64,000 nucleotides of DNA from an uncultured Gammaproteobacteria bacterium (lineage in GTDB: Bacteria > Pseudomonadota > Gammaproteobacteria > Pseudomonadales > Pseudohongiellaceae). The notes beneath the pieces were generated by a model that worked only from the letters and a program-made list of their open reading frames with translations, did no database searches and was not told the DNA's origin. Shown here piece after piece: positions 45,339 through 47,448 of this stretch. The stretch spans positions 1 through 64,000 of the forward strand of contig CAJXIY010000002.1 of the NCBI GenBank assembly GCA_913054495.1. The letters run 5' to 3'. The number at the start of each line of letters is the position of its first letter. Position 1 is the stretch's first letter. Position numbers and translations under genes: made by a program.

Positions 45339-45833
45339 GTGACTCCCTTGCGTATCGCCGTGCTTACGGTCTCTGATACCCGCACTGAGGAGACGGACAA
45401 GTCTGGTGCGGTGCTGATAGATTGTCTGCAGGCAGCCGGCCATAAACTGCAATCGAAAACCATAGTCAAAGATGATATCTATCAGCTACGTGCCGTGGTT
45501 TCCGCCCTCATATTCGACCCGGACATAAATGTGGTTCTACTCACAGGGGGTACCGGTTTTACCGCTAGAGACAATACCCTGGCAGCGATCAAGCCCCTGT
45601 TCGATGTTGATATCGAAGGCTTTGGTGAGCTTTTTCGTCAGCTTTCCTACGAGGAAATCGGCACCTCTACCATCCAGTCCCGGGCATTTGCCGGGCTGGC
45701 AAATGCCACCGTAATCTTCTGTATGCCGGGCTCTCCCGGCGCCTGCCGCACCGGCTGGAACCGGATCATCGCAGAGCAATTGGATAGTAGCCACCGGCCT
45801 TGTAATTTCACCGATAAGTTGAAGCTTCGGTAA
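45339..45833 (+). CDS. moaB: Molybdenum cofactor biosynthesis protein MoaB
   Basis: 164-residue MoaB/MogA family protein, thought to adenylylate molybdopterin. LTVSDTRTEETDKSG, LLTGGTGFTARDNT and FCMPGSPGACRTGW are the family blocks for the nucleotide and pterin sites. It starts at GTG 45339, four bases after the moaA stop, so the two are one unit. moaC, moaD and moaE are not here. Confidence 0.92.
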   Translation: MTPLRIAVLTVSDTRTEETDKSGAVLIDCLQAAGHKLQSKTIVKDDIYQLRAVVSALIFDPDINVVLLTGGTGFTARDNTLAAIKPLFDVDIEGFGELFRQLSYEEIGTSTIQSRAFAGLANATVIFCMPGSPGACRTGWNRIIAEQLDSSHRPCNFTDKLKLR

Positions 45834-45942: not shown

Positions 45943-45984
45943 TAAAAAAACACCAGCCAAAGCGTTCATGCTCTAGCTGGTGTT
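45943..45984 (-). terminator. Leftward Rho-independent terminator of the 37-codon gene
   Basis: Read leftwards, AACACCAGC, an 18-base loop, GCTGGTGTT and then a T-run. It sits 57 bp beyond the stop of the small membrane-peptide gene at 46041-46154, which supports that gene being transcribed. It is oriented against moaB. Confidence 0.75.
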
Positions 45985-46040
45985 AGTCAGCGCTTCGTTA
46001 GTTTAGGAAAGCTGCGAGCGGCTCCTGTCCTGAATCGGGG

Positions 46041-46154
46041 TCAAGCGGCGGCGTATAATATAACCACCGGCACTGCTAATGCAGCCAGTATCAATACCGT
46101 ACTTACCAGGGTCGCTTCTACGACGGGCCGCGCCTTACTGAGGGCCTTGCTCAT
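46041..46154 (-). CDS. Unlisted 37-residue membrane peptide
   Basis: ATG at 46154 with GGAG seven bases upstream, reading MSKALSKARPVVEATL and then a hydrophobic stretch with VLILAALAVPVVILYAAA to a TGA at 46043-46041. The product has a short basic N-terminus and one membrane helix of about 22 residues ending right at the C-terminus. An intrinsic terminator follows at the proper distance. No family is known to me. The combination of ribosome site, composition and terminator makes a real gene likely. Confidence 0.6.
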   Translation of the reverse strand: MSKALSKARPVVEATLVSTVLILAALAVPVVILYAAA

Positions 46155-46214
46155 GTCTTTCTCCATTTGAATTCGGGTTAATGTTGCCATCGGTGATTAG
46201 ATAACTGCGCACAT

Positions 46215-46244
46215 GGTAACATAAAATGTCCAATAAGGTAACAT
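46215..46244. repeat. Direct repeat GGTAACAT, 22-bp period
   Basis: GGTAACAT at 46215-46222 and again at 46237-46244, two helical turns apart, upstream of the small membrane-peptide gene. Same-face repeats like this suit binding of a regulator, but the spacing could be chance. Confidence 0.3.
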
Positions 46245-46454: not shown

Positions 46455-46680
46455 TGTGTAACAATAAGTAGCATTTTTTGGATGCATTCGTCAGCGCGGG
46501 CACGGATTCGACTCCAGCGTGGCCGCCTCCGGAACACTGTAAGCGCTGCTAGGCCAGGACAGCCGAACCGCAATAGTTTTTTAAGGATGAGACGCTGGTT
46601 TCGACTCCCGGCAACGGATAGAATTAGCGCCGCTGCCACATCCATAAGTTTCACCCGAGCAATGTAAGCGAATTAATTCT

Positions 46681-47448
46681 ATGCGTATCATGACCTTCAA
46701 CTGCAACGGTATTCGCGCTGCGGCACGCAAGGGATTTTTCGACTGGTTGCCAGGCGCGGGAGCCGACGTCGTCTGTCTGCAGGAAACCAAGGCCCAGCTC
46801 GATCAACTCTCCGATCCAGTTTTTCATCCCGAGCAATATCACTGCCATTACTTCGATGCGGTGAAGAAGGGGTATGCGGGGACCGCTATCTACACTCGCA
46901 AGCAGCCGGATAGGGTCACCAAAGGTCTGGGTTTTGAACTGGCAGACACAGAGGGCCGATATGTGCAGGCGGATTTTGAGGGTTTAAGCATCGCCTCCCT
47001 GTATCTGCCTTCAGGCTCCAGCAGCGAAGAAAGGCTGGCGCGAAAACTCAGTTTCATGGATGATTTCATGGAGCACATGAAAAAACTGCGCAGAAAGCGG
47101 CGCGAATTTATCATCTGCGCCGACTGGAATATTTGTCATAAGGAAATCGATCTTAAAAATTGGCGTGCCAACCAGAAGAACTCGGGTTTTCTGCCCGAGG
47201 AACGGCGGTGGCTCGACAGTCTTTATGATGAGGTGGGTTTTGTGGACGCATTCAGGCTGGTTAATCGGGAAGCAGATCAATATTCCTGGTGGTCGTACCG
47301 AGGTCAGGCCAGGGCAAATAATGTGGGTTGGCGACTCGACTACCATGTCATAACGCCGGGTATTGCGGATACAGTGATGGCCGCTACCATCGCATCGGAC
47401 CATAACTTTTCAGATCATGCGCCGGTTATTTTGGATTATAATTTATGA
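46681..47448 (+). CDS. xthA: Exodeoxyribonuclease III
   Basis: 255-residue AP endonuclease and 3'-phosphatase/exonuclease of base excision repair. The fold's motifs are present: MTFNCNGIRAA, LQETK (metal Glu), GTAIYTRK, ADWNICH, and SDHAPVI with the catalytic Asp-His. The stop overlaps an in-frame ATG of the following cyclophilin by four bases. Confidence 0.93.
   Translation: MRIMTFNCNGIRAAARKGFFDWLPGAGADVVCLQETKAQLDQLSDPVFHPEQYHCHYFDAVKKGYAGTAIYTRKQPDRVTKGLGFELADTEGRYVQADFEGLSIASLYLPSGSSSEERLARKLSFMDDFMEHMKKLRRKRREFIICADWNICHKEIDLKNWRANQKNSGFLPEERRWLDSLYDEVGFVDAFRLVNREADQYSWWSYRGQARANNVGWRLDYHVITPGIADTVMAATIASDHNFSDHAPVILDYNL

Follow-up and report, generated by a model that had tools for sequence, protein, structure and literature searches.

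AcrZ, MgrB and MgtS are stand-alone regulatory small membrane proteins, each encoded as its own unit and built of one helix and fewer than 50 residues; the helix of AcrZ contains a proline. By the positive-inside rule, a basic N-terminus stays in the cytoplasm. In hok and AapA, the ribosome site folds back on the 3' UTR. Three further systems are described in the accessible parts of published sources. CydX has 37 residues in E. coli and one membrane helix with conserved residues on one side, and it is easily missed by annotation (PMC4325964). Membrane type I toxins are peptides of <60 residues with a hydrophobic single helix and basic residues (PMC8309996). VcdRP of Vibrio cholerae is a dual-function RNA, and VcdP binds the soluble enzyme citrate synthase (PMC8672173).

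In the window, the whole stretch of 64,000 nucleotides that was analysed, an open reading frame of 37 codons lies on the minus strand at 46041..46154, running from an ATG at 46154 to a TGA at 46041 and translating to MSKALSKARPVVEATLVSTVLILAALAVPVVILYAAA. The first-pass annotation had proposed a hidden small gene here, describing a good ribosome site, a basic N-terminus, one membrane helix that extends to the C-terminus and, 57 bp past the stop codon, an intrinsic terminator. Each of these features was found again: a Shine-Dalgarno GGAG (46161..46164, minus strand) stands six bases before the ATG, the N-terminus of the 37-residue translation is basic, AlphaFold2 run on the single sequence gave one helix covering residues 3-36 of 37 (mean pLDDT 87.5), and a stem-loop followed by a T run (45949..45984, minus strand) starts 57 bp past the stop. 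AAGGAG-type ribosome sites occupy the equivalent place in relatives of the gene. An in-frame ATG at 46190 would extend the peptide upstream (46155..46190, minus strand) to 49 residues; it is common only to the two nearest loci, L062 and L257, and therefore the 37-codon start was taken as the conserved one. The own genome carries one copy of the gene, as determined by a genome search.

Within the genus, the peptide is widespread. In a search of 97 genomes, the peptide had a match with an E value of 2e-4 or better in 50 of the 61 from its own genus (the own genome counted), one of these matches (G019, L107) being a copy at another place, and the best of the 36 other-family genomes reached only E 0.33. 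The frame is not lost in close relatives: 67 of 73 loci, which were fetched because they matched and passed through a script requiring a start exactly 37 codons before the stop, keep exactly 37 codons. Of the six loci not counted, L106 is a piece at a contig end, L107 and L250 are copies located elsewhere, L113 has decayed, L246 has its frame broken near a C run, and L251, at 37 residues, was missed by the motif filter. Substitutions are biased towards third positions, with differences per codon position 1/2/3 of 0.287/0.172/0.611 over the 67 loci and 0.266/0.159/0.606 over 49 loci. Moreover, the window and its sister locus L062 differ by nine synonymous and two non-synonymous codons, and E13, A14, A25, P29 and I32 are invariant in the 49 loci. 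This codon-position signature and the constant length indicate a conserved, probably translated ORF of <50 codons, and the comparison thus upheld the small gene.

Some copies depart from this pattern. In one sub-lineage, decayed or degraded, less hydrophobic copies were found (L113, L117, L119, L249 and L251), as if selection were relaxed; given the decay of L113, L117 and L119, the peptide is dispensable in such lineages. Genome G033 carries two moaB-xth loci, L109 and L119. Peptide-like copies away from moaB were also seen (L107 in G019:C56, L115 in G016:C11 and L250 in G169:C14), and in L107 and L115 a further ORF with its own ribosome site comes after the copy, that of L115 having 71 residues.

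The stem of the proposed terminator (45984..45949) has 15 pairs, seven of them G-C, and a loop of 6, with TTTTTTTATCGG across the stem end and tail. Three terminator-like sites were called in 3 kb compared with 2.8 in shuffles, so the window terminator alone is not beyond chance. A ACACCAGC..GCTGGTGT stem recurs in relatives, 3' of the peptide gene, and it is this recurrence, not the window scan, that points to a terminator. The window peptide had no match in Pfam. Among 26 family members, the best Pfam hits were YfhG lipoprotein (0.037, two members), SecE (0.011, one member) and Tom22 (0.18), which were taken as chance, and the matches of 8 of 31 members to NCBIfam Rv1733c_fam (best 0.0068) were taken as compositional. 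The best PHROGs match was 0.093, the best PDB sequence matches were 0.83 and 0.63, and no peptide match was found in a plasmid collection. The shortness of the frame, the lack of any Pfam, PHROGs or PDB match worth the name and a terminator that does not stand out by itself would suit a chance ORF, or a gene for a non-coding RNA only, in which the frame means nothing. Such a reading is nevertheless already contradicted by the codon signature and is extremely improbable: third-position variation, fixed length, a ribosome site and invariant residues occur in many species, and the window has no tRNA or Rfam match. The gene is real; its kind is an ordinary one, and its family is new.

Beyond the genus, the genus profile matched 77 of 137 genomes of the family (Pseudohongiellaceae) at E 0.01, and its weak matches in genera g39, g40 and g43 adjoin moaB. 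Among 37 genomes of other genera with moaB, 31 flanks were fetched and read (seven from g38, five from g39, nine from g42, six from g43 and four from g44). Each of the 31 contains an ORF that has a ribosome site and encodes 33-43 residues, with a single hydrophobic stretch (hydropathy 2.0-2.7 over 19 residues) and a VP/IP/MP motif; this count was not blind, as a script listed ORFs by ribosome-site match and the hydrophobic one was picked by reading. In a joint profile (A2), only M1 and P29 are invariant, and residues are weakly conserved within the family outside the window's genus. In an order sample of 390 genomes, A2 found all 17 family genomes, none of them with an E value above 1.9e-8, a partly circular result as several of these genomes supplied A2 rows. 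Eleven of the other 373 genomes had A2 matches of up to 0.05, and the strongest of these, at 0.0028, falls within a frame of 1072 codons. A class sample of 369 genomes yielded the own genome plus two weak in-frame matches among the 368 others (2e-4 and 9.9e-4), which lie inside 604- and 113-codon frames and were not accepted as relatives. Thus, profile searches of the order and class samples gave no convincing relative outside the family. In addition, the gene was not found described in the published open-licence literature on small membrane proteins, on Pseudohongiella/OM182 and on dual-function RNAs.

The chromosomal site is also constant. The peptide gene is convergent with a moaB-like gene (45339..45833, plus strand), the constant neighbour, and divergent from an exonuclease III-like gene, xth (46681..47448, plus strand); beyond moaB, the window carries moaA, a LysE-type gene, cycH and ccmH. 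In every on-site genus locus where it was seen, moaB is convergent, and xth is divergent there. All 31 loci read in the five other genera, plus one g40 locus, have the peptide ORF adjoining moaB; in L329 (g38) the peptide stop is 983 bp from moaB. On the far side of the peptide gene, xth is present in the window's genus, in g42 (9/9) and in part of g43 (3/6), whereas the flanks retrieved from g38, g39 and g44 did not show it. An ORF of 277-294 residues, directed away from the peptide gene, lies between it and xth in L064, L065, L069, L074, L076 and L077, as well as in L086, L087, L099, L102 and L111; the only one scanned, that of L069, is a uroporphyrinogen-III synthase (Pfam HEM4, E 6e-31). 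In L325 (G116, g42), the space separating the peptide gene from moaB holds a second hydrophobic ORF of 37 residues, which also has a ribosome site; it had no Pfam match, and the same script found none in the other eight g42 loci. Upstream of xth, the window has a GC-rich stretch (46480-46660) in which TTCGACTCC, a segment reminiscent of a tRNA T-arm, occurs twice, and this stretch is without a tRNA, tmRNA or Rfam match.

Upstream of the peptide gene, a conserved region probably acts as its promoter. TGTTACNAT occurs 40-130 nt 5' of the peptide ATG in 64 of 67 genus loci, where shuffles expect 0.3, and within 140 nt upstream in 28 of the 31 loci of the five other genera. In the window, TGTTACCAT (46213..46221, minus strand) is proposed as an extended -10 element, and a second TGTTAC box (46238..46243, minus strand), 22 bp upstream, overlaps the proposed -35 region. 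The double TGTTAC box is kept at this 22-bp register in 64 of 67 loci. In the own genome, the sole exact TGTTAC-N16-TGTTAC is that of the peptide locus, and six sites with one mismatch occur elsewhere, compared with 13 in the control. A longer promoter motif was found once per genome in 44 of 71 genomes of the genus, always at the peptide gene (sites were assigned by comparing coordinates by eye); allowing one mismatch, the remaining 27 genomes, including the own genome with its two mismatches, gave no match. At that stringency, the promoter search revealed no regulon. The TGTTAC boxes recall the OmpR motif GTTACAnnnnGTTACA given in the accessible part of PMC7315122, but the distance between the two main boxes is 22 bp, and the likeness is only a lead.

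The predicted helix is hydrophobic and long enough for a membrane span, and the peptide is probably located in the inner membrane. Across 62 distinct peptides, conservation shows a helical periodicity with its maximum at 95-100 degrees per residue; permutation tests on three overlapping stretches gave p = 0.016, 0.025 and 0.005. A14, S18, A25, P29 and I32 fall at 220-280 degrees on the helical wheel, and other conserved positions lie off that face (E13 at 120, A27 at 80, V28 and P10 at 180 degrees). The test, for which three overlapping stretches were tried, is a modest one. Such one-sided conservation supports docking of the helix on a partner, or self-association. By description, the peptide resembles AcrZ, MgrB and MgtS in having its own unit, one helix and <50 residues, and it shares with AcrZ a proline in the helix. 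It is also like CydX, as described in the available part of PMC4325964, in its length of 37, its single helix, its one-sided conserved residues and the ease with which annotation misses it. However, the same text places the CydX gene with cydAB and assigns the protein a Y-W-G..E/D motif, whereas the peptide gene stands alone, between moaB and xth, without the motif. Both the W near the helix start typical of CydX/CydY/CydZ-type proteins and the Y-x-x-W-x-x-G motif of CydX are absent from the peptide profile, and no sequence match between CydX and the peptide was found in the libraries searched.

A hydrophobic helix of this size might instead belong to a type I toxin, a membrane-damaging peptide whose mRNA is silenced by antisense RNA or by ribosome-site pairing. 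The peptide has <60 residues, a hydrophobic single helix and basic residues, in line with the description of membrane type I toxins in the part of PMC8309996 at hand, and TisB, DinQ and Fst are likewise small hydrophobic single-helix peptides (PMC8309996; see also PMC3567139). Unlike these, the peptide gene is without general fold-back and without synonymous-site constraint. Pairing of the ribosome site with the 3' UTR reached a mean probability of at least 0.5 in five of 48 folded transcripts (L074, L104, L109, L110 and L119), as a toxin mRNA might, but it was 0.41 in the window and is not general; a fold-back of the hok/AapA kind was therefore dismissed as a mechanism for the gene in general. 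Throughout the frame, fourfold sites are free to vary (entropy 1.13-1.98 bits), which argues against a conserved antisense promoter or pairing element inside it. Because synonymous sites are unconstrained in the frame and the mRNA does not generally fold back, the type I toxin becomes less likely, and the single copy in the own genome, the fixed chromosomal site and the residue-specific conservation also speak against it. We regard it as improbable.

The 3' part of the transcript holds the most unusual element found, a frame-locked mini-ORF that is absent from the window itself. A mini-ORF (ribosome site and ATG) follows the peptide gene in 45 of 67 genus loci, for example MQSPLIDLRTD, and in 40 of these 45, the testable set, the terminator was also called. 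In 38 of the 40, the 5' arm of the terminator begins no more than 4 nt from the in-frame stop, compared with 1 and 2 in the other frames; the 38 cases are not independent, coming from related species, and the control frames share the same relatedness. The stops are TGA in 21 loci, TAA in 11 and TAG in eight, and 39 of these mini-ORFs have 10, 11 or 12 codons, the remaining one having 15. A strong ribosome site precedes the mini-ORF in, for example, L068, L071, L091 and L095, and by reading, the g43 loci also carry a short ORF at this position. The window, L062 and L257 keep an AGGAG at the position of the relatives' mini-ORF ribosome site (46022..46026, minus strand, in the window) with no start codon following, indicating that the start was lost in the window's lineage. 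Further loci without a mini-ORF include a deep group (L104, L105, L109, L110, L245, L247 and L249) as well as L092, L094, L096 and L097.

A hairpin at the mini-ORF start is suggestive only. In four relatives, it has -6.1 to -7.7 kcal/mol and z -0.8 to -2.2, and the window remnant has z -0.07; the consensus, from 28 of 32 distinct sequences (L073, L085, L088 and L260 excluded), keeps three pairs, two of them with change on both sides. As the first codons pair weakly with the ribosome site, the conservation of mini-ORF residues 2-5 may reflect RNA.

These features raise the question of a dual-function RNA, in which the transcript would encode the peptide and its 3' part would regulate by RNA pairing or through the terminator-tied mini-ORF, whose frame-locked stop fits this reading. 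Runs of at least five C within 120 nt of the stop also fit it, being present in 14 of 16 loci of three genera, namely g38 (L301, L306, L307, L309, L310, L312 and L329), g39 (L308, L313, L315, L317 and L328) and g44 (L316, L318, L319 and L324), compared with about three in shuffles and 0.01-0.07 of background windows. The C-rich runs of these genera sit in predicted loops, resembling the pairing regions of dual-function RNAs. The order of VcdRP, with a small ORF, four cytosines and a terminator, is alike in the available part of PMC8672173, and the three sister genera share with it the small ORF, the C-rich stretch and the terminator. However, VcdP has a soluble target, citrate synthase, in that text, and the window's genus does not conserve the C-rich stretch. 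No run of five C occurs in g42 (0/7), g43 (0/6) or the deep group of the genus (0/8), and such runs are at chance in the rest of the genus (6/59 compared with 4.3 expected), where runs of four C are somewhat enriched (26/59 compared with 15.0). Dinucleotide-preserving shuffles shrink the contrast, as 16 of 16 loci have mostly unpaired runs of at least four C where 11.5 are expected, and the window has no mini-ORF start. We rate a dual-function RNA as unlikely. A broader version, which we hold to be possible but doubtful, is a family-wide dual-output transcript, in which one promoter would serve both the membrane peptide and a lineage-specific regulatory 3' part. In g38, g39 and g44, this part would be a C-rich loop resembling an anti-Shine-Dalgarno sequence. 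Most members of the window's genus would instead carry a mini-ORF of 10-12 codons that sequesters itself; a ribosome terminating on it would sit on the 5' arm of the terminator and so couple translation to transcript ending. The window's lineage would have lost the mini-ORF start.

The first-pass annotation had left regulator and toxin undecided; the comparison leans towards a peptide that assists or regulates a membrane protein, without settling the matter. We consider this the best reading, ahead of toxin and dual-function RNA, with about an even chance of being right. On this reading, the peptide would be a small protein of the inner membrane, encoded on its own, with one helix face docking on a larger putative partner. 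Its own promoter would drive a transcript of about 265 bases, to be read into a peptide of 33-43 residues (37 in the window). The basic N-terminus would be kept in the cytoplasm, and the proline-containing helix would span the membrane. The conserved face (A14, S18, A25, P29 and I32, with E13 at the cytoplasmic edge) may then pack on a larger membrane protein or complex, and such packing may stabilise or tune the putative partner, as proposed for CydX in cytochrome bd. Against this docking helper stands the lack of an operon link to a membrane complex, the peptide gene being its own unit. The modest helix-face test, the weak residue conservation beyond the genus, the decayed copies and the two mismatches of the own genome to the longer promoter motif also count against it.

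The gene represents a new small-protein family, undescribed in the libraries searched and kept at one site across the examined genera of the family, with a proposed promoter conserved enough to locate the peptide gene by sequence. The lineages also offer a natural comparison of the roles of the 3' part of a small mRNA, a terminator-locked mini-ORF in some and a C-rich loop in others. If the helix docks on a complex, the peptide would point to an unknown subunit or regulator.
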